Shown piece after piece: positions 3 to 22,059 of a DNA stretch of 53,353 nt; the stretch's first letter is position 1, and each line of letters starts with the position of its first letter. The DNA is from Streptomyces lydicus (GTDB taxonomy: Bacteria > Actinomycetota > Actinomycetes > Streptomycetales > Streptomycetaceae). The notes below the pieces were generated by a model. That model saw only the letters and a list, made by a program, of their open reading frames with translations, was not told where the DNA came from and did not search any database. Both the position numbers and the translations under genes were made by a program. The stretch spans positions 1 to 53,353 of the forward strand of contig NZ_JNZA01000045.1 of the NCBI RefSeq assembly GCF_000717345.1, written 5' to 3'.

Positions 3-3000
3 ACGTCGTGGGAGGCGGTCGAGCGGGCGGGGCTGGATCCCCGTGCCCTGCGGGGCAGCCGTACCGGTGTCTTCACCGGCGTGATGTACCACGACTACGG
101 CAGCGGACTGGACGACGTACCCGAGGACGTCGAGGCGTTCCTCGGCAACGGCAGCGCGGGCAGCATCGCCTCCGGCCGGGTGTCGTACGCCCTCGGGCTG
201 GAGGGCCCGGCGGTGACGGTGGACACCGCGTGCTCGTCGTCGCTGGTGGCGCTGCATCTGGCGGCACAGGCGCTGCGCAGCGGCGAGTGCACCCTCGCAC
301 TCGCCGGCGGGGCGACCGTGATGGCCACCCCGGGGACCTTCGTCGGGTTCAGCCGGCAGCGGGGCCTCGCCGCCGACGGGCGGTGCAAGGCGTTCGCCGA
401 CGGCGCGGACGGCACCGGCTGGGGCGAGGGCGTGGGGGTGCTGCTGCTGGAGCGGCTGTCGGACGCACGGCGCAACGGGCATCCGGTGCTCGCCGTGGTC
501 CGTGGCAGCGCCGTCAACCAGGACGGTGCCAGCAACGGCCTGACCGCCCCCAACGGCCCCGCCCAGCAACGCGTCATTCGGCAGGCCCTCGACCACGCGC
601 GCCTCGGGCCGGCGGATGTCGACGCGGTCGAGGGGCACGGCACCGGCACCACGCTCGGCGACCCCATCGAGGCGCAGGCACTGCTCGCCACCTACGGGCA
701 GCGGCCTGAGGACCAACACCCGCTGTGGCTGGGCTCGTTGAAGTCCAACATGGGACACACCCAGGCCGCGGCCGGGGTGGGTGGTGTGATGAAGATGGTG
801 CTGGCGTTGCGGCACGGGGTGTTGCCCCGGACGCTGCATGTGGACCGGCCGTCGCGGCACGTGGACTGGTCGGCGGGCGCGGTGTCGCTGCTGACCGAGC
901 AGGTTCCCTGGCCGGAGACCGGCAGGCCGCGCCGGGCCGGTGTCTCCTCCTTCGGGATCAGCGGCACCAACGCGCACGTGATCCTGGAGCAGCCCGCCCC
1001 CGTGGCCATGGGCGCAGGCTCCGACACGTCCGACGTCCCCAACCAGCCCGGCGGACCGGCGCCCGTGCTGCCGTGGGTGCTCTCCGCCAGGACGCCCGCG
1101 GCGCTGCGCGAACAGGCTGCGGCGCTGGGGGAGTTGCTCACCGAGCGGCCGGAGACCGCCGCCGCGGACCTGGGGTTCTCGCTCGCCACCACCCGTACCG
1201 CCTTCGAGCACCGCGCCGCGGTCGTCGCCGGGGACCGGGCCGGTGCCCTGGCGGCGCTGGCCTCCCTGGCCCGGGGGGAGAGCGCGCCCGGCGCCCTGCG
1301 GGGAACCGCGACGGCCGGCGCCAGGACCGCGGTCCTCTTCTCCGGTCAGGGCAGTCAGCGCGCGGGCATGGGGACGGAGCTGTACGCCTCCTTCCCCGTC
1401 TACGCACGGGCCTTTGACGAGGTCTGCGCCCACCTCGACCCGCGGCTGGCACGGCCGCTGCGCGAGGTGGTGTTCGCGGCGCCCGAGTCGCCGGACGCCG
1501 CGCTGCTGGACCGTACGGAGTACGCGCAGCCGGCCCTGTTCGCCGTCGAGGTCGCGCTGTTCCGGCTGTGGGAGAGCTGGGGCCTGCGGCCGGACGCGGT
1601 GGCCGGGCACTCGATCGGCGAGCTCGCGGCGGCCCATGTCGCCGGGGTGTTCGACCTGGCCGACGCGGCCCGGCTGGTGACCGCCCGGGGCGGGGTGATG
1701 CAGGCGCTGCCCGGTGGCGGGGCCATGGTGTCCCTCCAGGCCGCCGAGGACGAGGTGCTGCCGCTGCTGGCCGGACGCGAACGAGAGGTGGCCGTCGCGG
1801 CGGTGAACGGCCCGGCGTCGGTGGTCGTCTCCGGCACCGAGGGCGCCGTCGCCGACGTCGCCGCGCACTTCGAGGCGCTGGGGCGCAGGACCCGCCGGCT
1901 GCGGGTGAGCCACGCCTTCCACTCGCCGCTGATGGATCCGGCCCTGGACGCCTTCCGGCAGGTGGCCCGCGAGGTGACCTACCACGCCCCGCGCATCCCG
2001 CTGGTCTCGGACGTCACCGGTGACACCGCGACGGACGAGCAGCTGGCCGACCCCGAGTACTGGGTGCGCCACGCCCGGGAGGCGGTGCGCTTCGCGGACC
2101 AGGTGCGCACGCTGGCCGGCCGGGGCGTGACCACCTTCGTCGAGGTGGGGCCGGATGCCGTACTGACCGCCATGGCGCGGGAGAGCCGGAGCGCGGACGC
2201 GGTGGCCGTGGCGAGCCTGCGCAGGGACCGGCCGGAGTGCCGGGCGGTGGCTACCGCCCTCGCCGAACTCCACGTCGGCGGCGTGCGCGTGGACTGGCAG
2301 GGCGTATTCGCGGACACCGGTGCGCGACGGGTGGAGCTGCCGACGTACGCGTTCCAGCGGGACCGCTACTGGCTGCGGTCCGGCCCGTCTGCCGCGGGCG
2401 CCCGCGCCGCCCGGTCCGCCACGCCGAACGCCCCCGCGCCGGTACGGCCGGACGGGGCGCCCGAGGACCGCTTCTGGCGGGCGGTCGCGGACCGCGATCT
2501 CGGCGCGCTGGCCACCCTGCTGGACGTGGACTCGGCACGCGAGGAGCCCTCGCTGAAGGCTGTGCTCGCGCTGCTGTCCGACTGGCGCGACGGCCGCGCC
2601 GAGGTGCCGGCCGCGGCGGGACCGGGCGACGCCGAACCGGGCGCGGACTGGTTCCACCGTCTCGCCTGGCACCCGCTGACCGACCGTGCCACCGCGCCGG
2701 CCCCCACCGGCACCTGGCTGGTCGTCGCCCCGGCCCGCCGCCCGGACGACGCCCTGGTGGCGGCCACGGTCGCGGCGCTGGAGGAGGGCGGCGCCGAGGT
2801 GGTCCTGGTCGAGCCGGCGGGGGAGGCGGGCAACGAGGCGGACGACACCGACGGGGACCGCGCCGCGGCCGGCGCTGCCTCGCTCGCGGACCGGCTGCAC
2901 CGTGCGGCCGGCGGACGGCAGATCGAGGGCGTGCTCTCGCTGCTGGGGCTCGCCGAGGGGGAGGGGCCCGGACACCCCGGCACCGCCCCTGGCCCGGCCC

Positions 3001-4550
3001 TCACCCTGGAACTGCTGCGCGCCCTCGACGCCGGGGACGTGCCGGGTGGCAGGGCACCGGTCTGGGTGGCCACCCGCGGCGCCGTATCGGTCGGCCGCTC
3101 CGACCGGCCGGCCGACCCTGCCCAGGCGCAGACCTGGGGGCTGGGCCGGGCCGCCGCCCGGGAGGCGGCCGACCGCTGGGGCGGTCTGGTCGACCTGCCT
3201 GTGGACCTCGACGTGCGGGCCCGGGCCCGGCTGCGTGCGGTACTCGCCGGCGCGATCGGAGGGGACGCGAAGGGAGCGAACAGTGAGGCCGGCGCGCTCA
3301 CGGAGACCGGAACGGCCGGCGCGAGCCCGGAGAACGAGGTTGCCCTGCGGCCGTCCGGCGCGTACGCCCGGCGTCTCGTGCCGGCCCCGCAGCCGGCCAC
3401 CGGCCGCGCCCCCGCCTGGACCACGCGCGGTACGGCACTGCTCACCGACGTGACGACGCCCGAGGGCCCGCACCTCGCCCGCTGGCTGGCCCGCGCCGGT
3501 GCCGAACACCTGGTGCTGCTGGCACCGCCCGGCACCGACACGCCCGAACAACTCGCCGACGAACTGGCCGAGTTGACAGCCGAGGTCACCGTCGCCCGGT
3601 GCGACACCCGCGACCGGGCGGCGCTGGCCGCGCTGCTCGATTCGCTGACCGCGAGCGGCCGGCCGGTGCGTACGGTCGTGCACACGACCGGAACGCCGCA
3701 CCCGGCCCCGCCGAGCGGCACCCCGCGCGCCGTCCTGGCCGACACCCTGCCGGCCCGGGTCGCGGGCGCCGAGCACCTGGCCGAACTGCTCGACCACGAC
3801 GCCCTGGACGCCTTTGTCGTCTGCTCCTCCGCCGCCGGTACCTGGGGCGCCGAGGGGCAGGCGGCCGCTGCCGCCGCCGACGCCCACCTCTCGGCCTGGG
3901 CCGCCCGCCGCCGGGAGTCGGGGCTGCCGGTGACCGTGGTCGCCTGGGGGCCGTGGGCCGGGAACGACCCCACGGACGGGGCGGCCACGGGCGACGGACT
4001 CACCCCGCTGCCCCCGGCCGCGGCCGTCCGCGCGCTGCACCGGATCCTCGACGCGGGCGGCGGCACCGACCGGATCGTGGCGGACGTGGACTGGGAGCGG
4101 TACGTCGCCGGCTGCCCCGCCGGCCGCATCAGCCCGCTGTTCCGCGAACTACCGCCGGTACAGGCCGCGTTGGCCGCACACGCCGCACCGTACGGCCGGG
4201 ACGGGGACGCGCCGGGGCAGGCCACCGGGCCGGGCGACTGGACGCCCGAGGAGCTGCGGCGGCGCCTGGCCGGACTGCCGGCGGACCAGCGGCCGGCCCT
4301 GCTGCTGGAGCTGGTCCGGGCCCGCTCCGCCACCGTGCTCGGCCATGCCGACCCGCGGTCCGTCGGCGCCGACGACGACTTCCTCGACATCGGCTTCGCC
4401 TCCATGACCGCCGTCGAACTGCGCAACCAACTGGTCGCGGACACCGGAGTGGAGCTGCCGCCGACCCTGATCTACGACTGCCCCACACCGGCAGCCCTCG
4501 CCACGTACCTGCTCGAAGAAGTGCAACAGCTGAAGGAGCCCGTTTCATGA
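3..4550 (+). CDS. Type I modular PKS, final module (KS-AT-KR-ACP), 5' partial
   Basis: The frame is open from base 3 and the N-terminus lies outside the window. The KS lacks its first part but has the active-site Cys (DTACSSS, fragment residue 77) and the two His (GHGTGT near 212, KSNMGH near 252). The AT has GHSIG (Ser near 537) and HAFH (near 637), the malonyl-CoA signature. The KR region (about 1140-1310) has lost the glycine-rich NADPH motif and the catalytic Tyr (the GQ..AYAAANA region reads [10 protein letters not shown]), so it is almost certainly inactive. The ACP follows, with [10 protein letters not shown] (Ser near 1467). There is no thioesterase or reductase domain. A malonyl-loading, non-reducing terminal module with no release domain is what is needed to pass a beta-keto acyl chain to an NRPS C domain for tetramic acid formation. 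It is probably the C-terminus of the last streptolydigin PKS. The stop overlaps the next start (ATGA). Confidence 0.95.
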
Positions 4551-5329
4551 CCACCTCCGCGACGGCATCCGCGATCCACCGCGCCAACCCCTGGATCCAT
4601 CGCTACCACCCGGCTCCGGACGGCGCGCTGACCCTGGTCTGCTTCCCGCACGCCGGGGGCTCGGCCACCTTCTACCACCCGGTCTCCCGCGCGCTGTCCC
4701 CGCAGGTGGAGGTGGTGGCCGTGCAGTACCCGGGACGTCAGGAGCGGTACGGCGAACCGGCGATCGACAACCTCGCGGAACTCGCCGACCGCGCCCACGA
4801 GGCGCTCGCGCCGCTGGCCGGCCGTCCGCTCGCACTGTTCGGCCACAGCATGGGCGCGATCGTCGCCTTCGAGGTGGCCCGGCGGATGGAGCGGGACGCC
4901 GGCGCGGGCCCCCTCGCGCTGTTCCTCTCGGGCCGCCGGGCGCCCTCCTGCCGCCGCGGCGACCGGGTCAGCGACGGCGGCGACGCGGCGCTGATACGGG
5001 AACTCCGGCTGCTGCGCGGCACCGACCCCGCGATGCTGGACGACCCCGAGATCGTCGAGATGATCCTGCCCGCGCTGCGCGCCGACTACCGGGCGATCGA
5101 ATCCCACCGCTGCCCGCCCGACGCCGCGGTGCGCTGCCCGGTCACCGTGCTCACCGGTGACGCCGACCCGCACACCACCGTCGAGGAGGCGCGGGCCTGG
5201 TCCGGTCACACCACCGGCGGCTGCGACATCGAGATCTTCCCCGGTGGCCACTTCTTCCTCGCGGACCGGTCCGCGGACGTCCTCGCCGCCGTCGCCCGAC
5301 GACTGCGGACGCTCGCGGCGACGGCATGA
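4547..5329 (+). CDS. Type II thioesterase
   Basis: An alpha/beta-hydrolase of 260 residues, the usual size for stand-alone editing thioesterases of PKS/NRPS clusters. Visible motifs are FPHAGGSA near residue 33, the nucleophile elbow GHSMG (Ser101), GDADP in the acid region and GGHFFL with the catalytic His near the C-terminus. Such enzymes remove aberrant acyl groups from carrier proteins. The ATG at 4547 overlaps the PKS stop (ATGA), implying translational coupling. It is not expected to release the product, because the tetramic acid is formed by the separate Dieckmann cyclase at 33024. Confidence 0.93.
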
Positions 5330-5370
5330 CGACCGTCGACGGCCCCCGTCCGGCACCCGGAAAGGACTTC

Positions 5371-6228
5371 ATGAGCGAGCGCACCGCGCACCGGCCCCCA
5401 CCTGCCCCGGACCGCTGGCGGGTCATCTGGCAGGACACCTTCGACGGGGACGCGGGCGCGCCCCCGGACCCGGAGCGCTGGCGGGCCGTCACCGGCAGCC
5501 CCTTCGGCGCCGGCGTGGAGGAGCACACCGACGACCCCGGGCACCTGGCGCTCGACGGCGACGGGCACCTGCGCCTGACCGCCACGTACGAGGCCGGGAC
5601 CGGACCCGACGGCACCGAGGGCCGGTACCGGGCGGCGTGGATCGAGACCCGGCGGGAGGACTTCGTTCCCCGCCCGGGCGGCGCGCTGCGCATCGAGGCC
5701 CGGGTCCGCACCGCCCCCGGCAGCGGCCTCGACTGCGCGATGTGGGCCTGGGGCACCCAGCTGCGCCACCGTGGGGACGAGGACCCGGTCCAGGCGTGGT
5801 ACCGGGCCGGCGAGATCGACGTGTTCGAGGTGCTCGGCTCCGAACCCGACTCCGTCTGGGGCGCGGTGCACTCCCCGGAGTGCCACCAGATCCCCTCCCT
5901 CGGCATGGGCGGCCCCACCACCACCGGCGACGGCAGCGCGCTCAGCGACCGGTTCCACACCTACGCGGTCGTCTGGCGGCGGGACCCCGACTCCCTCACC
6001 TGGTCCCTCGACGGCCGTGAGTACCTGCGGCTGATACCCGAGGACACCACGCCCCAGGGATGGCTGTTCCACCAGCCCGTCTTCTTCTGCCTGGCCGTCA
6101 TCATCGGCAGCCCGGGCGGACCCGTGCTGCCGGGCACACCGGACCCGTCCGCGTTCCCGTCCGCGCTGCTCGTCGACCACCTCACCATCTCCGAAGAGAC
6201 CGAACCGACCGAGGGGACACGGGCGTGA
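5371..6228 (+). CDS. GH16-fold protein, TrdE-like dehydratase candidate (copy 1)
   Basis: A concanavalin-like GH16-family protein of 285 residues. The family signature ExDxxE is intact as [10 protein letters not shown] (E148, D150, E153). In tirandamycin biosynthesis the GH16-family enzyme TrdE was shown to form the C11-C12 double bond rather than cleave a glycan, so a polyketide-tailoring role is the best inference here. No signal peptide is evident, which argues against a secreted glucanase. I chose the ATG at 5371 because GGAAAGGA lies just upstream. A start at 5326 overlapping the thioesterase stop is also possible. The end overlaps the next gene (GTGA). A second, clearly paralogous copy lies at 24168. 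Confidence 0.85.
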
Positions 6229-9067: not shown

Positions 9068-9094
9068 GTGGCACTTCCTCCACGGAAAGAATGT

Positions 9095-9131
9095 GGCCGC
9101 CCCACCGGGGCAAAGGAACGGTGGGGCGGCC
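9095..9131 (-). terminator. Hairpin between MFS gene and P450 gene
   Basis: Perfect 12-bp stem (9095-9106 with 9120-9131) and a 13-nt loop, downstream of the MFS stop and upstream of the P450 start on the same strand. There is no T-run. It may terminate or attenuate read-through, so the two genes need not be expressed equally. Confidence 0.5.
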
Positions 9132-9188
9132 GGCGGCAGCCGCTGGGCCGGGGGAACCCGGCGACTGCTGGCTCGTGGTGACCTGCGG

Positions 9189-10685
9189 TCAGGTGCCCGG
9201 GGCGACTTCCTCCTTGGCGGGCGCGGCCGGCGCCTTGGCCGGAGCCGGCGTCCGCAGGTCGACCTTGATCAGGACCGCCGCGACGACCGCGGTGACCAGC
9301 AGGATCCCGCCGGCCCACAGGCTCGCCACCGCGTAGCCGTGCACGGTCGCCTCCGCGGTGGCCGCGGCTCCGGGCGCCCGGGAGGCCAGGGCGGTGGCCG
9401 TCACGCTCGTCGCGATGGTGTTGAGCAGCGCCGTCCCGATGGAGCCGCCGATCTGCTGCGAGGTGCTGACGAACGCCGAGACGACACCGACGTCGGCGGG
9501 CGGCACCTTGTTCGTCGCGATGTTGACGCACGGCGTCATCACCAGGCCCAGTCCGGCGCCGAGCAGGATCTGGGTGGGCAGCAGCGTCGACGCGTACGGG
9601 CTCTCCGGGGTCAGCCGGCCGAGGTTGAACAGTCCGGCCGCGGCCAGCAGCAGGCCCGGCGCCACCAGCAGCCGCACCGGCACCCGCGGCATGAGCCGGG
9701 CGGTGACCTGGGTCGTGGTGAGCACCGTCGCCAGGGTCGCCGGGAGCAGCGCCAGCCCGGCACGGGCCGGTGAGTAGTGCATGACCACCTGGAGCTGGTA
9801 GGTCATGATCAGGAACAGCCCGAACATGCCGACCATGGCCAGCGCGATGGTGAGGAAGCCGCCGGCGCGGTTGCGTTCGGCCAGCACCCGCAGCGGCAGC
9901 AGGGGATCGCGGACCTTGGCCTGGAGCGCCACGAAGGCGGTCAGCAGCACCAGCGCGGCCACCAGCAGGCCGACCACCCGGCCCGAGCCCCAGCCCTCGT
10001 CCGCGGCCTCGCTGAAGCCGTAGACCAGCGCCACCATGCCGCCGCTGGAGAGCACCGCGCCGGGGACGTCGATCCGCACGCCCCGCTGGGCCGGCAGACC
10101 GGGCAGCAGCAGCCAGGCGCCGACGGCCACCAGGACCCCGATGGGGACGTTGACGTACAGGCACCAGCGCCAGTCGAGGTACTGGGTGATCACGCCGCCG
10201 CAGAGCAGACCCAGCGCTCCGCCGGCCGCGGCCACCGAGCTGAAGACGCCGAACGCCTTGGCGCGCTCCCGGGGCTCGGTGAACGTCGTGGTGAGCATCG
10301 CGAGGGTCGCGGGGATCAGGAGCGCGGCGAAGAGTCCCTGTGCGGCGCGGGAGCCGACCAGGATCGCGGCGGTCGGCGCGGCGCCGCCGGCCGCGGAGGC
10401 GGCGGTGAATCCGGCGACCGCGATGACGAAGGCCCGCTTGCGCCCGATGAGGTCGCCGATCCGGCCGCCCAGGAGCAGCAGTCCGCCGAAGGCGAGGGTG
10501 TAGGCGGTGATCACCCATTGCCGGTCCGCGTCCGACATGCCCGTGGCCCGCTGCGCCCAGGGAAGGGCGATGTTCACGATCGTGGTGTCCAGCATGACCA
10601 TCAGCTGGGCGATCCCGATCACCGCCAGGCCCCACCACCGGAAGCGCGCCTGCCTCGTGGTCGAGGCCGCGGTCGCTTGCGTCAT
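9189..10685 (-). CDS. MFS drug exporter, DHA2 (EmrB/QacA) type
   Basis: 498 residues with many hydrophobic segments, consistent with a 14-helix DHA2 proton antiporter of the cytoplasmic membrane. Family motifs include LDTTIVNIALP in the first helix region and GGRIGDLIGRKRAF (motif A) in the loop after helix 2. I start at 10685 (MTQATAAS) because AGAGGAGC lies 6 nt upstream. Its divergent partner is the TetR gene at 10837, and the shared intergenic region holds an inverted repeat, the usual arrangement for a repressor controlling an efflux pump. The probable substrate is the cluster product. Confidence 0.9.
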   Translation of the reverse strand: MTQATAASTTRQARFRWWGLAVIGIAQLMVMLDTTIVNIALPWAQRATGMSDADRQWVITAYTLAFGGLLLLGGRIGDLIGRKRAFVIAVAGFTAASAAGGAAPTAAILVGSRAAQGLFAALLIPATLAMLTTTFTEPRERAKAFGVFSSVAAAGGALGLLCGGVITQYLDWRWCLYVNVPIGVLVAVGAWLLLPGLPAQRGVRIDVPGAVLSSGGMVALVYGFSEAADEGWGSGRVVGLLVAALVLLTAFVALQAKVRDPLLPLRVLAERNRAGGFLTIALAMVGMFGLFLIMTYQLQVVMHYSPARAGLALLPATLATVLTTTQVTARLMPRVPVRLLVAPGLLLAAAGLFNLGRLTPESPYASTLLPTQILLGAGLGLVMTPCVNIATNKVPPADVGVVSAFVSTSQQIGGSIGTALLNTIATSVTATALASRAPGAAATAEATVHGYAVASLWAGGILLVTAVVAAVLIKVDLRTPAPAKAPAAPAKEEVAPGT

Positions 10686-10754
10686 GTCGCTCCTCTTTCG
10701 TCTTTCCGCGCTCGTTGACGCAGGCCGGCGCGGCACCGGACTGCGGTAGCAGCA

Positions 10755-10830
10755 GTAAAACCCAATTGCTTAACCGAGTCAAGATGTAAACCTGGTCACC
10801 TCCTTGACTCGGTAAGCCTCGTGTTAGGGT
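10755..10830. promoter_or_regulatory. Divergent promoters with TetR operator-like inverted repeat
   Basis: Inverted half-sites CTTAACCGAGTCAAG (10769-10783, + strand) and CTTACCGAGTCAAG (10816-10803, - strand) differ by one base. Reading toward the MFS gene, TTGACT (inside the left half-site) is followed after 17 bp by TTTACT. Toward the TetR gene, TTGACT (10805-10810) is followed by TAGGGT (10825-10830), which would start transcription at or next to the GTG at 10837. Both -35 elements lie inside the half-sites, so a bound regulator would block both genes. Confidence 0.65.
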
Positions 10831-10836
10831 GCAGGG

Positions 10837-11499
10837 GTGGAAGAGCGAGACGAGCCGATGGGGCTCAGGGAGCGCAAGAAACAGCGGACGCGGCAGGCGA
10901 TCTCCGACGCCGCGATCTCACTGTTCCTCCAGCACGGGTTCGACCAGGTCTCGGTCGTGGACGTGGCGGCGGCGGCCGAGGTGTCCAAGCCGACGCTGTT
11001 CAAGTACTTCCCGACCAAGGAAGACCTGGTGGTGCACCGCTTCGCCGACCACGAGACGGTGGCGGGCACCATCGTGCGCGAGCGCCGCTCCGGCGTCTCA
11101 CCGCTCGCCGCCCTGCACCAGCACTTCGTCGACGGGCTGGCCCGCCGCGACCCCATCACGGGCCTGAACGACGAGCAGGAGGTCCTCGACTTCCACGGTC
11201 TGGTGTACTCCACGCCCAGCCTGCTCACCCGCGTGGTGCAGTACCAGAGCCGCGCCGAGGAAGCGCTGGCGCAGGCGCTGGCCGAGGCACTGGACGCCGG
11301 GCCCGCCGACGTCACGCCCCGGCTGCTGGCCGGTCAGGTCGTCGCCGCCCAGCGCATCCTGGCCGCGGCCAACTGGCAGCGGATCGTCGACGGCGCCACG
11401 GCGGACGGCAGTTACCCGCAGGCGGTCGCCGACGCCGACCATGCCTTCGCGCTGCTGGAGTGGGGACTCGCCGGCCCCTCGGCAGCCCGCACCGCCTGA
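10837..11499 (+). CDS. TetR-family transcriptional regulator
   Basis: 220 residues. The N-terminal helix-turn-helix is typical of TetR (RTRQAISDAA...FDQVSVVDVAAAAEVSKPTLFKYF, about residues 18-58) and is followed by a ligand-binding domain. The GTG start at 10837 would make a leaderless mRNA given the -10-like TAGGGT 7 nt upstream; an ATG at 10858 (MGLRERKK) is the alternative. It is divergent from the MFS exporter and convergent with the helicase gene. It probably represses the exporter and itself, relieved by the antibiotic or an intermediate, and may also act at the helicase promoter, where related half-sites occur. Confidence 0.92.
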   Translation: MEERDEPMGLRERKKQRTRQAISDAAISLFLQHGFDQVSVVDVAAAAEVSKPTLFKYFPTKEDLVVHRFADHETVAGTIVRERRSGVSPLAALHQHFVDGLARRDPITGLNDEQEVLDFHGLVYSTPSLLTRVVQYQSRAEEALAQALAEALDAGPADVTPRLLAGQVVAAQRILAAANWQRIVDGATADGSYPQAVADADHAFALLEWGLAGPSAARTA

Positions 11500-11517
11500 G
11501 GCCGCACGCCACACGAG

Positions 11518-11565
11518 CACGTCACGCAAGCGCGTCACATACACGTCACGCAAGCGCGTCACATA
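11518..11565. repeat. Perfect 24-bp tandem duplication
   Basis: Two identical 24-bp units (11518-11541 and 11542-11565), each containing GTCACGCAAGCGCGTCAC, lie between the TetR stop and the terminator. The function is unknown. Confidence 0.9.
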
Positions 11566-11600
11566 AAGGAGCACGCCCCGGGGCCGGGGCGTGCTCCTTT
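11565..11600. terminator. Bidirectional terminator between tetR and helicase genes
   Basis: Perfect 15-bp stem (AAAGGAGCACGCCCC at 11565-11579 with 11586-11600) with a 6-nt loop. The arms end in AAA/TTT, so it works on either strand for the convergent genes. Confidence 0.85.
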
Positions 11601-11611
11601 CGCCTGTCGCG

Positions 11612-13711
11612 TCAGCCGGCCAGCGGCTCCGGCAGCGGGTGCGCGTGCAGCACGTCGAGGCGGGACACCGCACGCGTCACGGCCACGTACAACCGGTGCA
11701 GACCGCGCGGCTCGGCCGCCACGATGGCCGACGGCTCCACGACGATCACGTGGTCGTACTCCAGGCCCTTGACGACCTTCGCCGGCAGGACCGCGAGCCG
11801 CGCCGCCGTACCGACGTCCTCGGAGGTGGCGACCTCCAGGCCCGCCGCCCGCAGCGCCTCGGCCGTCCGCTCCGCCTCGGCGTCCGCGGTGATCACCGCG
11901 ATGGCCCCCTCCTGCGTCAGCGCCTGCCGCGCGGCCTCGACCGTCGCGGACAGCGTGTCCGGTACCCGGCGGACCGACAACTCGCCGTCCTGGCGCAGGG
12001 ACCGGGCCGGCGGCACGTCCACGTCGAGCGCGCCCAGCAGCCGGTTGGCCAGGGACATCACGGCGGCCGGCACCCGGAAGCCGGTGGTGAGCTCGGTGAC
12101 CGTCCCCTGGGTCTTGCCCAGATGCGCCAGCTGCTCGGCCCAGGAGCGCGCCGCCCACGGAGCGGTGGCCTGTGCCAGGTCACCCAGTACGGTGAGCGAA
12201 CCGAAGCCGCTGCGGCGGGCGATCGCCCGGCACTGCATGGGGGAGAGGTCCTGGGCCTCGTCGACGACCACATGGCCGAAGCTGCCGGGCCGCTCGATCA
12301 GGCCGGCTACCTCGTCGATCAACAGCATGTCCTGGACGGACCACTTGGCGCTCTTGACCGATCGCGGCGGCCTGTCCCACACCAGCGCCGCCTGCTCGTC
12401 CGCGTCCAGCAGCCCGTCCGCCGCCCGGGCCAGCGCCTCGGCATCGCCCAGCAGACCGGCGACCACCTCCTCCGCCCGGACCGTGGGCCACACGGCGTCC
12501 AGGAAGGCCGCGACCGGGCGGCAGCGGCCGATCTTCCGCTGCCAGGTCATGTTCTTGGGGCCCGCCCGGCGCTCGGCCTGCTCCTGCACCAGCGACACCG
12601 CCCGCGAGCGGACGTGTTCGCGCCCCACCGCGTACGGCGGCGCCTGCTCGCGGACCTCCTCGACGATGCGGCTCAACTCGTCGCCGTACACCCGCCAGCG
12701 GTAGGAGCCGTCCGGGACGGTGATGCCGTCGGGGACCGCGGTGACCCTGCTGTACAGGGCGCGCTCCAGTACGGCCGCCATCCGGTGGCTCTGCTTGACG
12801 GCCGCCGCCAGTTCGCCGTCGACGGCCTGCACCGGATGGCGGGCCACCACGTCCTCCACCGTGCACTGCGCGATGTCGATCTCGCCGAGCGCCGGGAGCA
12901 CCTGGGCGATGTAGCGCAGGAACGTCTGGTTGGGGCCGATGATCAGCAGACCGCTGCGCTGCAGCCGCTGCGGGTAGGTGTACAGCAGGTAGGCCGCACG
13001 GTGCAGACCGACCGCGGTCTTTCCGCTGCCCGGTGCCCCCTGGATGCACACCGAATCGGCCAGTTCGCGGCGCACCAGGTCGTCCTGCTCCGGCTGGATG
13101 GTGGCGGCGATGTCGCGCATCGGGCCGGTGCGCGGGCGCTCGATCTCGGCCGCGACGATCCGGCTCGCCCCGGCCGGCACGTCCTCCTGCCGGTCGAGGT
13201 GCTCGTCCTCCATGCCCGTCAGGTCCTTCGGCTCGCCGCTGCTCAGCGGTGCCCAGCCGAAGCGCCGGCGGACCGCGACGCCCTGCGGTTCCAGGGCGCT
13301 CGCCTGATAGAAGGTGCGCGAGACCGGCGCCCGCCAGTCGACGACCAGCGGCGGCGCGGCCGGGTGCTCCGAGACCCGGCGGCGCCCGATGTAGTAGCGC
13401 TGCCGGCGGTGGTCCCCGGTCTCCGGCGCGTCGTCGAAGTCCAGCCGGCCGAAGAAGAGCGGGCTGTCCGGCTCCTGCGCCATGTCCCGTGCGCGGGTGC
13501 GCAGATACCGGCCCAGCGCCTCCGCGCTCGCGCCGTCGCCCGAGACGTCCTGCCCCTCGGTGACCTGCAGGCCCGCGTCCTCCACCTGCCGGGTCATCGC
13601 GCTCCGGCACAGGGCGACGTACCGCCGCTCCTCGGCGAGTTCGTCGTCCAGCCCGGTGGCATCGCCGGCGCGGGAGTCCGGGGTGTACGCGTCCTGGGCG
13701 TATGACGTCAT
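11612..13711 (-). CDS. HelD/HelR-type superfamily 1 helicase acting on RNA polymerase
   Basis: A UvrD/Rep-like ATPase of 699 residues. Walker A is GAPGSGKT (Lys231), Walker B/motif II is VVVDEAQD near 485, motif III is LGDLAQAT, and motifs V-VI are at KGLEYDHV and LYVAVTRA. The preceding MRDIAATIQPEQDDLVR is the Q-motif region typical of actinobacterial HelD proteins. HelD binds RNA polymerase and remodels its main and secondary channels. The Streptomyces homologue HelR protects RNAP from rifamycins. Placed inside the cluster of an RNAP inhibitor, beside an exporter and its regulator, this is a strong candidate self-resistance determinant, although that specific role is inference. A housekeeping HelD is the alternative. 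Confidence 0.88.
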   Translation of the reverse strand: MTSYAQDAYTPDSRAGDATGLDDELAEERRYVALCRSAMTRQVEDAGLQVTEGQDVSGDGASAEALGRYLRTRARDMAQEPDSPLFFGRLDFDDAPETGDHRRQRYYIGRRRVSEHPAAPPLVVDWRAPVSRTFYQASALEPQGVAVRRRFGWAPLSSGEPKDLTGMEDEHLDRQEDVPAGASRIVAAEIERPRTGPMRDIAATIQPEQDDLVRRELADSVCIQGAPGSGKTAVGLHRAAYLLYTYPQRLQRSGLLIIGPNQTFLRYIAQVLPALGEIDIAQCTVEDVVARHPVQAVDGELAAAVKQSHRMAAVLERALYSRVTAVPDGITVPDGSYRWRVYGDELSRIVEEVREQAPPYAVGREHVRSRAVSLVQEQAERRAGPKNMTWQRKIGRCRPVAAFLDAVWPTVRAEEVVAGLLGDAEALARAADGLLDADEQAALVWDRPPRSVKSAKWSVQDMLLIDEVAGLIERPGSFGHVVVDEAQDLSPMQCRAIARRSGFGSLTVLGDLAQATAPWAARSWAEQLAHLGKTQGTVTELTTGFRVPAAVMSLANRLLGALDVDVPPARSLRQDGELSVRRVPDTLSATVEAARQALTQEGAIAVITADAEAERTAEALRAAGLEVATSEDVGTAARLAVLPAKVVKGLEYDHVIVVEPSAIVAAEPRGLHRLYVAVTRAVSRLDVLHAHPLPEPLAG

Positions 13712-13807
13712 CGATCGCGACCTTTCCGCAGTGACCGCCTTGCTGTGCTGCGTCTGCGTCGTCCGTACGCCGTACGGAGCCGGCGGCGGTTGACCCGCAC
13801 AGCATAA

Positions 13808-13836
13808 CTGAACCGGGTTAAGAGACTTACCGGGTT
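13808..13836. promoter_or_regulatory. Operator-like repeat upstream of the helicase gene
   Basis: Half-sites CTTAACCCGGTTCAG (13822-13808, - strand) and CTTACCGGGTT (13826-13836, + strand) are separated by 3 nt. They resemble the tetR/MFS half-sites (11 of 15 and 9 of 11 matches) but are arranged head to head with a different spacing. They sit just upstream of a -10-like TATGCT for the helicase. Confidence 0.45.
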
Positions 13837-13962
13837 GCCCCTACGGAGGTGTGGTCCCGGGGGCGGACCGCGCCGTCGCGTCCGCCCTGCGGAGACGGGC
13901 CCGGAGCCGCCCTCCCGGTGCCCCGCGGGCGCCGGGCCAACACCCCTGCGCCGCCACGCAGA

Positions 13963-13986
13963 TAGGGGCTGTAGGGGTTTTGGGGC
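13963..13986 (+). promoter_or_regulatory. Tandem TAGGGG boxes upstream of slgE1
   Basis: TAGGGGCTG (13963) and TAGGGGTTT (13972), followed by TGGGGCGCT (13981), at about 9-bp steps. The same core occurs as CTAGGGGTTA twice at 24067-24096 and as TAGGGGCATTAC upstream of the LAL gene. Possible binding sites for that regulator. Confidence 0.4.
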
Positions 13987-13989
13987 GCT

Positions 13990-14015
13990 CTTTCCGCGGG
14001 CTAGCCTGCGGAAAG
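13990..14015. promoter_or_regulatory. 26-bp near-perfect palindrome upstream of slgE1
   Basis: CTTTCCGC...GCGGAAAG arms enclose GGCTAGCC, with a single mismatched pair over 26 bp. It ends 42 bp before the slgE1 start, directly after the TAGGGG boxes. It could be a dimeric operator or a 5'-leader hairpin. Confidence 0.55.
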
Positions 14016-14057
14016 CGACACACAGGTTTTGCGAGTCCGACTATTCGGGGTGGGTGG

Positions 14058-14519
14058 ATGGGCAAGGCAATGGAGCGCGCATGCGACGACGCACGGCACA
14101 GCGGAGTGGTGATCGTCAGCAGTCTCGCTTCCGACGCCCACACCTGGAACCTCGTCTATCTTCAACTGCTGCTGGAAGAGCACGGTTTCGAGGTGGTGAA
14201 TCTCGGTGCCTGCGTACCCGATGAACTGCTCGTCGCCGAATGCCTGGACCGCGCCCCGGACATGGTGGTCATCAGCAGCGTGAACGGGCACGGATATCAG
14301 GACGGCCTGCGCGTCATCGCCCAACTGCGCCGGCGCCCGCCGCTCGCCCGGACCCGCATGGTGATCGGCGGGAAGCTCGGGATATCCGGAGCGCGGGACG
14401 GTCTGCGCGCGGACCGGCTGCTGGACGCCGGATTTGACGCGGTGTTCCCCGACGGGCCCGACGCCGTACCGGAATTCGAGCGCTATCTGAGTCATGTCTT
14501 CGAACGAGTCGCGTCATGA
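14058..14519 (+). CDS. slgE1: Glutamate mutase (methylaspartate mutase) small subunit
   Basis: 153 residues, one cobalamin-binding domain of the MutS/GlmS type. The adenosylcobalamin loop DxHxxG appears as DAHTWN (D26, H28 the axial ligand, N31 in place of Gly), followed by SSVNGHG and VIGGKL. With the large subunit it rearranges L-glutamate to (2S,3S)-3-methylaspartate. Genetic work on S. lydicus assigns SlgE1/SlgE2 to supplying the 3-methylaspartate unit of the streptolydigin tetramic acid. I start at the ATG at 14058 because upstream in-frame sequence shows no family similarity. The stop overlaps the slgE2 ATG (ATGA). Confidence 0.92.
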   Translation: MGKAMERACDDARHSGVVIVSSLASDAHTWNLVYLQLLLEEHGFEVVNLGACVPDELLVAECLDRAPDMVVISSVNGHGYQDGLRVIAQLRRRPPLARTRMVIGGKLGISGARDGLRADRLLDAGFDAVFPDGPDAVPEFERYLSHVFERVAS

Positions 14520-15865
14520 CCGTCGAATTCCGTGTTCCGTCGCACACGGCGGAAGACGGGACGGCCGGTAATTCCACCGGCTTCGGCGAGTTCGTACGCC
14601 ACCGGGCCGCATCCGGCGAACTCGTCGTCCAACCGCGCATGGGATTCAGCGATCCCGCGCGGATGCGGGCCGGACTGCTGGCCACCCGGCGCGCCGCGGC
14701 CACCACCGTGGGCACCCTCACCGTCGACAGCTACACCCGCGTCGGCGACCTGGCGGCGGCCCGCGACGCCCTGCGCGCGGGCATCGCGCTCAACGGCTAC
14801 CCCCTCGCGACGCACCCACGGGAGACCACCGCGCAGGTCCTCGCGGGCATCGCGGCCGACGACTTCCCCGTACAGGTCCGGCACGGCTCGGCTGATCCCG
14901 GCCACATCTTCACCGCCCTGACCGCCGCCGGGCTCTCGGCGACCGAGGGCGGACCGGTCTCCTACTGCCTGCCCTACGGCCGCACGCCGCTGGAGAAGTC
15001 CGTCGACAGCTGGGCGCGGTGCTGCGAGGACTTCGCCGAACCGCGGCGGCCGGGCGTACGGCCGCACCTGGAGACCTTCGGCGGCTGCATGCTCGGGCAG
15101 CTGTGCCCGCCCGGCCAGCTGGTGGCGCTCAGCGTCCTGGAGGCGCTGTTCTTCCACCGCCACGGCGTGCGCAGCATTTCGGTGAGCTACGCCCAGCAGA
15201 GCCACCCCGGCCAGGACCGGGAGGCGGTCCGGGCGCTGCGCGTCCTGTGCGCGCGGCTGCTGCCCGACGCGGACGTGCACATCGTGGTCTACGCCTACAT
15301 GGGTCTGTTCCCGCAGACCGCGGACGGCGCCCGGGCGCTGCTCGGCGAGGCCACGCGGCTGGCCCGGGCCACCGGAGCCGAACGGCTCATCGTCAAGACC
15401 GAGGCCGAGGCCGACCGCATCCCCACGGTCGCCGAGAACGTCGCCGCGCTGGAACACGCGGCCCGCACCGCCCGCCGCCACCGCGCGGAGGCCCCGGCCG
15501 GCGCCGACGACGACTCCCAGGTGCACGCCGAGGCGTACGCCCTCATCGACGCGGTGCTCAACGCCGCGCCGGACATCGGCCGGGCCCTGGTGCAGGCGTT
15601 CAAGCGCGGGCTGCTGGACATCCCCTACTGCCTCCACCCGGACAACGCCGGCCGCAGCCGGAGCTATCTGGACCGCGACGGCCGGCTGCGCTGGGCCGAC
15701 GTCGGTTCGCTCCCGCTGGCCCCGCTGGTCGGGGCCGGCCGCAGCCGGCCGGTCACCTCCGGCGAGCTGATGAGTGCCCTGTCCTATGTGCGCCGCACCT
15801 TCGACGGCGACCCGTACGGCGAGCTGCGCGGGCGCCCGCGCGGAAAGGCGGTCGAAGACCGATGA
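14516..15865 (+). CDS. slgE2: Glutamate mutase large (epsilon) subunit
   Basis: 449 residues, slightly shorter than the clostridial MutE/GlmE barrel subunit (about 480). It forms the TIM-barrel partner that binds glutamate and the adenosyl group. Recognisable stretches are QPRMGFSD near residue 38, VRHGSADP near 122, PYGRTPLEKSVDSW near 155 and ETFGGCMLGQLCPP near 185. It is coupled to slgE1 upstream and to rmlA downstream by ATGA overlaps, so precursor supply for the amino acid and for the sugar are on one transcript. Confidence 0.93.
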   Translation: MTVEFRVPSHTAEDGTAGNSTGFGEFVRHRAASGELVVQPRMGFSDPARMRAGLLATRRAAATTVGTLTVDSYTRVGDLAAARDALRAGIALNGYPLATHPRETTAQVLAGIAADDFPVQVRHGSADPGHIFTALTAAGLSATEGGPVSYCLPYGRTPLEKSVDSWARCCEDFAEPRRPGVRPHLETFGGCMLGQLCPPGQLVALSVLEALFFHRHGVRSISVSYAQQSHPGQDREAVRALRVLCARLLPDADVHIVVYAYMGLFPQTADGARALLGEATRLARATGAERLIVKTEAEADRIPTVAENVAALEHAARTARRHRAEAPAGADDDSQVHAEAYALIDAVLNAAPDIGRALVQAFKRGLLDIPYCLHPDNAGRSRSYLDRDGRLRWADVGSLPLAPLVGAGRSRPVTSGELMSALSYVRRTFDGDPYGELRGRPRGKAVEDR

Positions 15866-16929
15866 GAGCACTCGTGCTGGCCGGCGGGACCGGGACCAGA
15901 CTGCGTCCGCTCACCCACACCTCGGCCAAGCAGATGGTGCCGGTGGCCAACAAGCCCGTGCTGTTCTACGGCCTGGAATCGATCGCCCGTGCCGGGATCA
16001 TCGACGTCGGCATCGTCGTCGGCGACACCGCGGCGGAGATCCGCGCGGCGGTCGGGGACGGATCGAGATTCGGCCTGAAGGTCACCTACATCCCGCAGCA
16101 CGCGCCGCTCGGCCTGGCCCACGCGGTGCTGGTCGCCCGGGACTTCCTGGGGGAGGAGGACTTCCTCATGTACCTCGGCGACAACTTCATCTGCGGCGGG
16201 ATCACCGGACTCGTGGCGGACTTCCAGGTCAAACGGCCCGACGCACACATCCTGCTGACCCGGGTGGCCGACCCCGGCGCCTTCGGCGTGGCCGAGCTCG
16301 GCCCGGACGGGCGGGTCGTGGGGCTGGAGGAGAAGCCGGAGCAGCCGCGCAGCGACCTCGCCATGGTCGGCGTCTACCTGTTCACCCCGGCCGTCCACGA
16401 AGCGGTGCGGGCCATCGAGCCCTCCCGGCGGGGCGAGCTGGAGATCACCCACGCCCTGCAATGGCTGATCGACGCCGGGCGGCGGGTGGACTCCACCCTC
16501 ATCGAGGACTACTGGAAGGACACCGGTAGCGTGGTGGACATGCTGGAGGTCAACCGCACCGTCCTGGAGAGCGCCGAACCCAGGCTGGACGGGCTGGTCG
16601 ACGAGCACAGCGAGATCATCGGCCGGGTCGTGGTCGAGGCCGGGTCCCAGATCCGCGGCTCACGCATCGTCGGCCCGGTCGTGATCGGCGCGGACAGCCG
16701 GATCACCGGCTCCTACGTCGGTCCGTTCACCTCCATCGGCGAGCGCTGCCGGCTCGACGACTGCGAGGTCGAGTACTCCGTCGTCCTGCCGGAGACCCGC
16801 ATCACCGGAGTGCGCCGCATCGCCGCCTCGCTGATCGGACGCAATGTGGAGGTCAGCCCGGCCGCGCCCGGCCCCCGCACCCACCGCCTCGTCCTCGGCG
16901 ACCACAGCACCGTGCAGATCGCGTCATGA
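15862..16929 (+). CDS. Glucose-1-phosphate thymidylyltransferase (long form)
   Basis: 355 residues. The N-terminal nucleotidyltransferase signature is LAGGTGTRLRPLT (residues 6-18), then KQMVPVANKP, YLGDNFI and EDYWKDTGS. The C-terminal 110 residues form a hexapeptide-type left-handed helix repeat (GSQIRGSRIVGPVVIG), as in StrD-type enzymes of antibiotic clusters. It makes dTDP-glucose, the first step toward dTDP-L-rhodinose. It is the RmlA-equivalent member of the slgS sugar set; I do not assign the number. Confidence 0.93.
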   Translation: MRALVLAGGTGTRLRPLTHTSAKQMVPVANKPVLFYGLESIARAGIIDVGIVVGDTAAEIRAAVGDGSRFGLKVTYIPQHAPLGLAHAVLVARDFLGEEDFLMYLGDNFICGGITGLVADFQVKRPDAHILLTRVADPGAFGVAELGPDGRVVGLEEKPEQPRSDLAMVGVYLFTPAVHEAVRAIEPSRRGELEITHALQWLIDAGRRVDSTLIEDYWKDTGSVVDMLEVNRTVLESAEPRLDGLVDEHSEIIGRVVVEAGSQIRGSRIVGPVVIGADSRITGSYVGPFTSIGERCRLDDCEVEYSVVLPETRITGVRRIAASLIGRNVEVSPAAPGPRTHRLVLGDHSTVQIAS

Positions 16930-19763: not shown

Positions 19764-21082
19764 GAGGGCTCCCTCGTCGTCGGGTCCGGCCGCCGCTCGG
19801 CGGCCGGCTGCGGCCACAGGTCCTCCGGGGCCAGTTCGGCCGCCGCGTACTTTCCCAACGCGCTGACCAGAAGGCGCAGTTCGAGCTCCAGGCAGGCGGT
19901 CAGCCGGATCAGCCCGCGGTCCGGGTCCTCGTCGGCGGCCAGCAGCGCGGCCCGGCCCAGACCGGCCGCGCGGGCGCCCAGGGCCAGGCTCCTGGCCACC
20001 CGGCCGCCCTCCCACATCCGCCCGCTGACCAGCAGCGGGTGCGGCCCCGCAGCGATCCGGCGCAGGCACTCGCCCAGCGGCAGCCCGACGCCGTCGAGGA
20101 ACGCGTGCGGTGCCCAGCCGGAGCCGCCCTCGGCGCCGTCGACGGTCACCGCGTCGGCACCGGCCTGCCACGCCACCGCCGCGGCCCGGTCCACGTCCCG
20201 GCCCGGGAAGAGCTTCACCCACACCCGGACCCGCGGATAGTTGCTGCGCATGAAGCGGATCTGCTGGCGCAGGATCTCCTCGGTGACGGTGCCCGGCGCA
20301 CTGCAGCGCAGCACGTCGCCCTTCTCGCCGAGGGTGTCCTGCACCCGGTAGCGATCGGCCAGCCGGTCCGCCTCCGCCGCGTCCACCAGGGTCATCCCGC
20401 CCAGGCCCGGTTTGGCGCCCTGGCCGACCTTGAGCTCGAAGGCCAGCCGCCCGGACGCCAGCAGCGGCTGGACGTGCGGGTCGCTGTGCACCAGGTTCCA
20501 CACCTCGGCGTCGGCGTCCTCGGTGCTCTGCTGCACGGCGATGCCGCCGACGCCGTCGGGCAGTTCGTCGGCGTACGCGCGGATGCGGCGCAGCAGGCCG
20601 GCGGCGTTCCCGCCGCCGTCGGACGCGGTGCCGGGCCGTCCGTAGCCGCTGACGGGCAGCACGTTCTCCCCGATGACCAGGGGCAGACCGAGGCTGCCCG
20701 CCTGCCGGCCGACGGCGGTGCCGAGGCCGTCGCCGGCGGCGCGGGTCGAGCCGAACGCCGAGACGTACAGCGGCAGCGGGGCCTGGAAGCCGCCGATGTC
20801 GGTGGTCAGGTCGACATCGGAGTGCTGGGGCTCGCGGCCCAGCTCGATGAGCTTCTCCAGCCGCCGCGGCATGAACACCGGCGGCACCAGGCGCCCGGTC
20901 TCCAGCAGCTCACCGGGCGTGCCGTACGGGGCGCCCGCCTCGGGTGCGCCGGGGGCCGCGCCGAGCAGCGTGTGCCCGTAGCCGGAGAGCGGCGGGAAGG
21001 CCGCGGCGGTGCCCGAACGTGCCCGCTCGCGCACCGCTGCCTCGGGGAACCCCGGGGCAGACAGCCCGCTGCCGCCGGTCAC
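19760..21082 (-). CDS. slgE3: FMN-dependent glutamate synthase-like protein
   Basis: 440 residues corresponding to the synthase (FMN barrel) part of glutamate synthase: QGAKPGLGG near residue 215 and VDGAEGGSG near 313 are family signatures. It lacks the N-terminal glutaminase domain. The Cys cluster that binds the 3Fe-4S centre is also missing: the equivalent C-terminal region reads [18 protein letters not shown]. SlgE3 of S. lydicus is described as a ferredoxin-dependent glutamate synthase supplying glutamate to the mutase; the missing features leave its electron and ammonia sources unclear. The GTG start at 21082 overlaps the slgZ stop. Confidence 0.85.
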
Positions 21083-22059
21083 AACGACACCACGCCGGGG
21101 ATCTTCGGGAACGCGGTGGCCTCCCAGACCGCGTCCAGGCCGCACACGTAGCGGGTCAGGCGCTCGATGCCGATGCCGAACCCGGCACTGGCCGGAATGC
21201 CCTCCCGGGCCACCTCCAGGAAGTGCTGGTACTTGCCGGGGTTCTCGCCGGTCTCCCGCATCCGCGTGACGATCCGCGCGTGGTCGAACTCCCGCTCCGC
21301 ACCGCTGATCAGCTCGCCGAACCCCTCGGCCGCCAGCAGGTCGAAGTTCCGCAGGGTGCCGGGCACTTCGGGGTCCTCGCGGTCGTAGAAACCGCGCGAG
21401 CCCTTCGGGTAGCTGGTGACGAAGAACGGGCGGGTGGCCTTGCGGGACAGCATCGCCTCGCCCTCCCAGTCGATCTCCGCGTCCGGGTTCTGCTCGTGTC
21501 CCAGGACGGCCAGCTCGGCGACCGCCGTGGCGTGGGTGAGGCGGTCGAATGGCTGGGCGAGCAGGTCGGCGAAGGCGTCCGGGTCCCGGCCGAGCACGTC
21601 GAGGTCCGCGGGCAGCTGCTCGGTGACCGAACGCACCGCGGCACGGACGAGGTCCTCGGCGACGCCCATCGCGTCCTGCGCGCCGGCGCCCGCGATCTCC
21701 ACGTCGAACTGGTGGAATTCGGCGAGGTGCCGTTGGGTCGAGCAGGTCTCCGGCGGCTCCAGACGGACGTTGGGCGCCACGCAGAAGATCTTGTCGAAGG
21801 ACAGCAGCGCAGCCTGCTTGTACATGATCGCGCTGGTCATCAGCTTGTAGCGGTGCCCGTAGTAGTCGACGTCGACCTGCTTGGCGCCGCGCCCGCCGGG
21901 GTCGGTGGCCGGGCCGATGACGGGCGGCAGCAGCTCGACGAAGCCGAGCGCGCGCAGATGGTCGCGGGCCGCGGAGACGATCTGCTGCTGGATGCGCAGA
22001 ACGGCGCGGGTGCGGGGGCTGTCGAGGTGCTTCCGGGGTGAGGGCGGCAGCTGGCTCAT
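21079..22059 (-). CDS. slgZ: Asparaginyl-tRNA synthetase-like asparagine synthetase paralogue
   Basis: 326 residues, a class II synthetase catalytic core without the N-terminal anticodon-binding domain, as in archaeal asparagine synthetase-related proteins. Motif 2 reads RLEPPETCSTQRHLAEFHQF (about residues 100-119) and motif 3 GFGIGIERLTRYVCG (about 294-308). Such paralogues activate the aspartate side-chain carboxylate as an adenylate and amidate it. Inactivation of slgZ in S. lydicus gave an altered streptolydigin, placing it in tailoring of the 3-methylaspartate side chain toward the amide. The start is ATG at 22059. It heads the slgZ-slgE3-slgN1 overlapping set. Confidence 0.92.
   Translation of the reverse strand: MSQLPPSPRKHLDSPRTRAVLRIQQQIVSAARDHLRALGFVELLPPVIGPATDPGGRGAKQVDVDYYGHRYKLMTSAIMYKQAALLSFDKIFCVAPNVRLEPPETCSTQRHLAEFHQFDVEIAGAGAQDAMGVAEDLVRAAVRSVTEQLPADLDVLGRDPDAFADLLAQPFDRLTHATAVAELAVLGHEQNPDAEIDWEGEAMLSRKATRPFFVTSYPKGSRGFYDREDPEVPGTLRNFDLLAAEGFGELISGAEREFDHARIVTRMRETGENPGKYQHFLEVAREGIPASAGFGIGIERLTRYVCGLDAVWEATAFPKIPGVVSL

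Follow-up and report, generated by a model that had tools for sequence, protein, structure and literature searches.

HelD proteins of Class II are defined by a primary-channel loop (PMC11464796), and they displace rifampicin, whose loss is ascribed to the tip of that loop (PMC10719064). Loop-tip mutants remained able to clear stalled RNA polymerase (RNAP) from DNA but conferred no resistance to rifampicin (PMC10719064), so disassembly alone is insufficient in the case of rifampicin. HelR of S. venezuelae and M. abscessus, a Class II protein that provides target protection from rifamycins, shares with the protein described here the HelD fold, the ATPase, an actinobacterial host, a tie to an RNAP-targeting antibiotic and apparent inducibility. 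HelR has the primary-channel loop, however, whereas our protein is without it and is part of a producer's cluster; HelR is also described with a rifamycin-associated element (RAE) upstream, whereas the array found at our gene resembles TetR-type operators. M. smegmatis HelD (6yxu, 8q3i) has the N-terminal hairpin, RecA-like domains and clamp-opening domain in common with our protein (31% identity in the fold match) but likewise carries the loop. HelD of B. subtilis (Class I) is also loop-less and protects from rifampicin via its N-terminal domain or arm (PMC12802891); this arm is long, whereas the corresponding hairpin of our protein is predicted to be short. Several HelDs are often present per Streptomyces genome, and the small variants SCO4195 and SCO4316 (680-681 aa) are of the same size class as our protein; the portion of that account drawn on here names no TetR or cluster link for them, whereas the gene described below has both (PMC8655204). 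These two variants probably belong to the same lineages as the types seen here. A literature search, weak in that few primary cluster papers were covered, found no paper that places HelD in a streptolydigin or tirandamycin cluster.

The window analysed here is one whole contig of Streptomyces lydicus (NZ_JNZA01000045.1; 53,353 nucleotides), and the features that bear on helD are collected in Table 1. A complete HelD-family gene between an MFS/TetR pair and the glutamate mutase genes had been reported in the initial annotation and was confirmed, coordinates and neighbours being exact. The gene converges with tetR, from which the MFS gene diverges; on its other side, helD and the glutamate mutase genes are divergently oriented. 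The streptolydigin set in the window comprises a PKS end, NRPS, two GH16 genes, two P450 genes, dTDP-sugar genes, an SlgZ-type gene and glutamate mutase. When 16 window proteins were compared with a 19.9-kb stretch of S. lydicus 103 (G137), 11 matched in their own place at 91-98% identity and the PKS end matched at 86% across its last 639 residues; GH16b and P450b matched paralogues only, and two queries lie beyond the stretch. The two HelD proteins are 98% identical. On its gene set and this near-identity to S. lydicus, the locus is a streptolydigin cluster. Rfam gave no match within positions 9000-16500. The two GH16-like genes of the window, the marker and a second at 24168-25022, are approximately 62-63% identical to each other, and both also occur in S. 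lydicus 103; a single marker-type match was found in each of genomes G283 and G316.

Table 1. Features of the helD locus and its surroundings, in window positions.
Feature	Position	Strand	Remarks
Type I PKS end (KS-AT-KR-ACP)	81..4550	+	cut by contig edge
GH16-like gene, marker for related clusters	5326..6228	+	TrdE/NcmE type by position and family
Cytochrome P450	7823..9067	-	
MFS exporter, DHA2/EmrB-type	9189..10736	-	515 aa
Predicted TetR operators (three), 17-bp spacing	10771..10815	.	between divergent MFS and tetR
TetR-family regulator	10837..11499	+	220 aa; predicted to repress MFS, tetR and helD
helD-family gene	11612..13711	-	699 aa, ATG start, intact ORF; without primary-channel loop; TetR-linked lineage
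Predicted TetR operator pair, helD promoter	13810..13837	-	17-bp-spaced pair of TRACYNRGTYA-like sites; followed by TATGCT, the presumed -10
Glutamate mutase B12 subunit, slgE1-like	13851..14519	+	divergent from helD; true start probably downstream
Glutamate mutase E subunit (MutE), slgE2-like	14516..15865	+	
tRNA-synthetase-like gene, SlgZ type (class-II)	21079..22059	-	97.5% to S. lydicus 103

The helD product matched M. smegmatis HelD (6yxu) at E=1.9e-73, and at 2.1e-95 in a profile alignment. Foldseek searches with an AlphaFold model ranked M. smegmatis HelD first to fifth and B. subtilis HelD sixth and seventh; the model was of modest confidence (mean pLDDT 65.9) and was used for element order only, the short N-terminal hairpin being predicted, at the same modest confidence, as helices 19-52 and 60-79. 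Walker A (GAPGSGKT) and Walker B (VVVDEAQ) motifs are present, and these motifs (with S or T at one place in the former) and DWRAP were found in 26/26 aligned relatives. By these matches, which cover the N-terminal, 1A/2A and clamp-opening regions, the protein is a member of the HelD family. All four NCBIfam matches were to HelD/HelR models, and all fell below cut-off: HelR_2 325/1100 bits and HelR 263/750 bits (the curated HelR cut-offs, NF041258 and NF041254), HelD_MYCSM 288/1051 and HelD_BACSU 175/419. Between the WP motif and Walker B the protein has 72 residues, compared with 114, 130 and 134 in the three large paralogues encoded elsewhere in the genome; the segment where the loop would sit, after the clamp-opening domain and ahead of Walker B, is thus shorter by 42-62 residues, and the loop region of M. 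smegmatis HelD (419-515) is mostly without counterpart in the profile alignment. On these alignments the primary-channel loop is absent, which sets the protein outside Class II HelD and HelR. The term "HelR-type" in the initial annotation was consequently dropped: the protein lacks the loop, the tip of which rifampicin protection requires, and its HelR scores lie far below cut-off.

Five HelD-like genes were found in the source genome, namely the window gene, a paralogue on contig C6 (49% identical) and more distant copies on C43, C12 and C16. The latter three (C43:69117, C12:281006 and C16:52966) encode large proteins that are longer at the expected site of the primary-channel loop. A reading of the window gene as the housekeeping helD was ruled out by the four other copies. 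Matches at 1e-150 or better were obtained in 383/392 Streptomyces genomes and mix two lineages, which split with 100/100 support in a tree of 64 proteins: type A, which is C6-like and approximately 49% identical to the window HelD, and type B, the window lineage, at 58-75% in many strains among the matches listed. The spacing from WP motif to Walker B is 72 residues in 7/7 type-A proteins and 66-73 in 59/72 type-B rows (duplicates included, the other 13 rows being outside the search motif). Among type-B copies sampled elsewhere, 20/20 (L110-L129, hand-picked at steps down the match list before promoters were inspected) have a TetR gene upstream in the same orientation, and at 21/21 of loci L017-L037 such a gene adjoins helD, divergently in six. 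No TetR match was found beside helD in 7/7 type-A copies, six of these loci holding a 1.5-kb flank only. Many TetR-linked copies elsewhere share flanks mutually, and the relic and lone-pair loci described below share none with them; this comparison covered the relic and lone-pair loci, with the window locus left out. A single conserved chromosomal helD, syntenic in non-producers, had been named in the initial annotation as the observation that would speak against a dedicated role; the gene is instead one of five, and the flanks of copies elsewhere are not common to the loci of its lineage. An empty native site was also considered, and the idea was dropped when neither the own genome nor S. lydicus gave a clear ortholog of two flanking genes of copy L055.

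In order to locate related clusters, a named genome collection was scanned for the GH16 marker using six short peptide patterns, which diverged clusters can escape. Nine loci were obtained, of which seven are Streptomyces tetramate-type clusters and two (L065, L066) were dropped, having no window protein match above 70 bits. With the window and S. lydicus 103 added, helD was present in 9/9 GH16-marked tetramate clusters, one link (S. lacrimifluminis) running across two contigs. Six of the seven scanned clusters carry a full-length helD (73.8-74.1% identity) roughly 2 kb beyond the GH16 gene; in S. lacrimifluminis, the 13-kb marker contig is without helD and a 12-kb contig holds a PKS end, NRPS, P450, TetR and a 67% HelD. 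Within a genus sample, the marker occurred in 4/384 genomes (own included) and helD was in the cluster in 4/4. S. tirandamycinicus has a HelD 75% identical to the window protein (P0023; known from the protein match alone). The gene is thus conserved in clusters for the same drug class, a criterion of self-resistance. GH16 matches in a class sample (71/394 genomes) were at most 44% identical among the matches listed, except for the own two cluster copies, and were taken as ordinary GH16 enzymes.

Gene order in S. actuosus (L105) is NRPS, GH16, cyclase-like gene, helD, LuxR, P450, MFS and TetR, the cyclase-like gene having squalene-hopene cyclase domains; TrdF is named a prenyltransferase in the literature. 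By this order helD would be TrdG/TamG, which we take to be labelled "unknown function". The description of nocamycin biosynthesis includes NcmJ, a 713-aa AAA family ATPase that resembles the window HelD in size and annotation style and is adjoined by the TetR NcmK (49% to TrdK), as tetR accompanies type-B helD, and also Orf2, a 664-aa helicase at the cluster edge whose size and annotation, compared by description only, are similar (PMC5466765). Judged from these descriptions only, NcmJ could be a HelD, with Orf2 another candidate.

The helD genes of eight tetramate clusters, three relics and two lone pairs group together in a fully supported clade (100/100; 13 members). S. lacrimifluminis HelD lies outside this clade (branch supports 90/91 and 90/97) and may have been captured independently, although a single clade including it was not rejected by the AU test on a smaller tree (p 0.127).

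Near-palindromic sites (CTTRACYNRGTTMAG) were identified in two regions, the MFS/tetR gap and the stretch preceding helD; a TRACYNRGTYA core recurs there in a 17-bp repeat, three times in the gap and twice before helD (Table 1). Pairs of such sites scoring at least 19/22 and spaced 17 bp apart are confined, across both strands of the whole 53-kb window, to the helD promoter and the gap between MFS and tetR, so that TetR probably controls exporter and HelD together. The second site in the window helD promoter directly abuts TATGCT and would lie within the promoter spacer, a position that suits a repressor. Scanning the window with the pattern gave four strand-wise matches against 0.73 expected (1/100 shuffles had as many), a result that is partly circular because the pattern was derived from cluster promoters; a set of copies from elsewhere is a fairer test. 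Before the 20 sampled type-B copies the mean score was 18.85, against 13.95 in Markov controls (0/500 as high); 20/20 have a pair before helD at 17-21/22 and 15/20 reach 19, and the loci jointly hold 32 strand-wise hits at 19 or more in 391,878 positions. Upstream of helD at 12 cluster, relic and pair loci the mean was 19.33, against 14.02 (sd 0.27) in Markov controls, again with 0/500 as high. The seven type-A copies gave no signal (scores 13-15; 444/500 controls as high). Among L017-L037, 18/21 score at least 17, the exceptions being L019 (14), L021 (16) and L026 (13); the pair at L055 scores 16/22, and that of S. lacrimifluminis, which is outside the 12-locus set, is weak at 18/22.

Three strains keep intact helD and tetR beside differing broken remnants of genes from tirandamycin-type clusters: L043 (G157), L046 (S. 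griseus, G274) and L047 (Streptomyces sp. SCSIO 75703, G092), whose helD is full-length at 92, 96 and 92% and whose tetR is at 94, 97 and 94%, respectively, relative to L105. L043, with pieces of NRPS, GH16, cyclase-like gene and LuxR and no MFS, is clearly a decayed cluster. L046 retains 94/498 aa of the MFS protein, a piece of an FMN-binding edge gene and weak cyclase-like matches, and L047 retains 54/498 aa of MFS and a smaller edge-gene piece. Decay was probably independent in the three, because their remnants differ. Whole-genome searches of these strains found no intact marker-type GH16 (a 64-residue fragment in G157, otherwise at most 40%) and no exporter above 57%, the MFS paralogues being at 52-57%. 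Pairwise helD dN/dS (NG86, no significance test) relative to L059 was 0.155 for L043, 0.122 for L046 and 0.164 for L047, 0.18-0.21 among the relics, 0.118-0.130 between intact clusters and 0.36 for the window; tetR gave 0.18-0.54 from few changes. Two further strains, S. ficellus (G210) and S. bambusae (G188), have the helD-tetR pair with no recognisable remnants within 20 kb.

We read helD, from sequence and context, as an inducible RNAP rescue factor that forms one layer of self-resistance, and assign this reading a probability of roughly two in three. The earlier proposal of a dedicated immunity factor is favoured by context, because the gene is present in 9/9 clusters, appears to share an operator array with the exporter, is kept beside broken cluster genes and is not the housekeeping copy; as the sole immunity it is doubtful, given the altered RpoB described below. 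Several points count against the reading. The relics may be too young for helD to have been lost, and what is left of the cluster in two of the three is pieces of the exporter gene and of one edge gene; some relatives (L019, L021, L026, L055) have no strong pair before helD; the RpoB allele alone may suffice in this strain; and the TetR-HelD pair is found in many marker-less strains, so that both its function and its inducer may be less specific.

Streptolydigin targets the trigger loop; it prevents the folding of this loop and makes short pauses long. Drugs acting in this region get in the way of the bridge helix, the trigger loop and fork loop 2 (PMC10274647). GreA and GreB, which are secondary-channel factors, cooperate with streptolydigin and strengthen its effect (PMC10274647), so entry into the channel does not by itself guarantee protection. 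Under the rescue reading, intracellular drug or a late intermediate would release TetR, and exporter and HelD would rise together. HelD would then bind the drug-arrested polymerase, its N-terminal hairpin inserted into the secondary channel where trigger loop and bridge helix lie, while its clamp-opening domain would open the primary channel and the arrested complex would fall apart. Distortion of the streptolydigin pocket, made up of bridge helix, trigger loop and fork loop 2, would let the drug leave, after which ATP would release HelD. Drug loss would thus come about by clamp opening and complex disassembly rather than by a loop tip in the drug site, as proposed for rifampicin; the clamp-opening route is favoured because the primary-channel loop is absent, and dismantling of arrested complexes because streptolydigin stabilises paused elongation complexes. 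This exact mechanism (clamp opening, arrested-complex disassembly, drug release) is offered tentatively and is itself somewhat doubtful.

RpoB residues L485 and D486 reportedly confer streptolydigin resistance in S. lydicus, as described by Sanchez-Hidalgo in 2010. In a comparison of RpoB and RpoC segments only, L-D was found in the own genome and S. lydicus 103, at what are presumably these same producer positions, and F-E in the other 28/30 genomes (six other cluster strains, three relics, two pair-only strains and 17 controls; S. griseoflavus was not counted). Across the 30 genomes, the RpoC bridge-helix/trigger-loop segment had no change common to cluster strains, and G394 had one substitution of its own. 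Because RpoB is altered, HelD is probably not the sole immunity in this genome. The allele, the exporter in the cluster and the frequency of multiple HelDs in Streptomyces (PMC8655204) would all suit an alternative in which target mutation and export are the real immunity and helD is a captured RNAP-recycling gene that aids transcription during production without protecting; this is unlikely, since the RpoB drug-pocket segment is ordinary in 6/6 other cluster strains, three strains hold helD without an intact cluster exporter and the exporter's operator-like array is common to helD. In the segments compared, the target change was seen in the streptolydigin lineage only, and HelD is in all clusters, which makes HelD the shared factor. 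As a rescue factor, HelD would act on top of altered RpoB in the streptolydigin lineage and may be the main target protection in the tirandamycin-type lineage, whose RpoB is ordinary in the compared segment. The own-genome RpoB is encoded on contig C27 (L130, L138). In Streptomyces sp. I6 (G396, L167) the rpoB frame is apparently shifted, perhaps by sequencing error.

The TetR-HelD pair is widespread in Streptomyces and was also found in Embleya and Nonomuraea, at loci without a GH16 marker match. Such a distribution would accord with HelD being a general stress factor, whose TetR senses another signal (a different RNAP inhibitor or a metabolite), which clears stalled polymerases whatever the cause and whose place in the cluster reflects a general benefit only. 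We consider this improbable, as helD lies among biosynthetic genes in 9/9 tetramate clusters, the genes of eight of these clusters group with those of the relics and lone pairs in the fully supported clade of 13, and the predicted operator array in the window would serve the exporter too. Eviction in the manner of HelR, with a steric element at the active site expelling streptolydigin as Class II HelD proteins displace rifampicin (PMC10719064), is very improbable given the shortened loop segment and the M. smegmatis loop region that has no counterpart in the profile alignment.

More broadly, Streptomyces and some relatives (here Embleya and Nonomuraea) may hold a separate loop-less HelD subfamily that its own TetR repressor gates via 17-bp-spaced operators and that acts as a drug-inducible RNAP-rescue module against bridge-helix/trigger-loop inhibitors; streptolydigin/tirandamycin-type clusters would have adopted it, perhaps more than once, as self-resistance, and it would be kept as a stand-alone resistance island after loss of the drug genes; we place this generalisation just short of an even bet. 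If true, HelD-based resistance would extend to a non-rifamycin drug and would not need the primary-channel loop. HelD-type target protection in the literature found concerns rifamycins only, and the producer copy described here would add a second RNAP pocket. The role of the small Streptomyces HelD paralogues would then become a directly testable question, for which the streptolydigin lineage with altered RpoB, the tirandamycin-type lineage with an ordinary RpoB segment and the strains with helD and tetR only provide a contrast set. The helD-tetR pair may also aid mining for RNAP-inhibitor clusters. Strong 17-bp-spaced operator-like sites were observed at the TetR-HelD pairs of Nonomuraea gerenzanensis (L207, 22/22) and Embleya sp. 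NBC_00896 (L208, 20/22).
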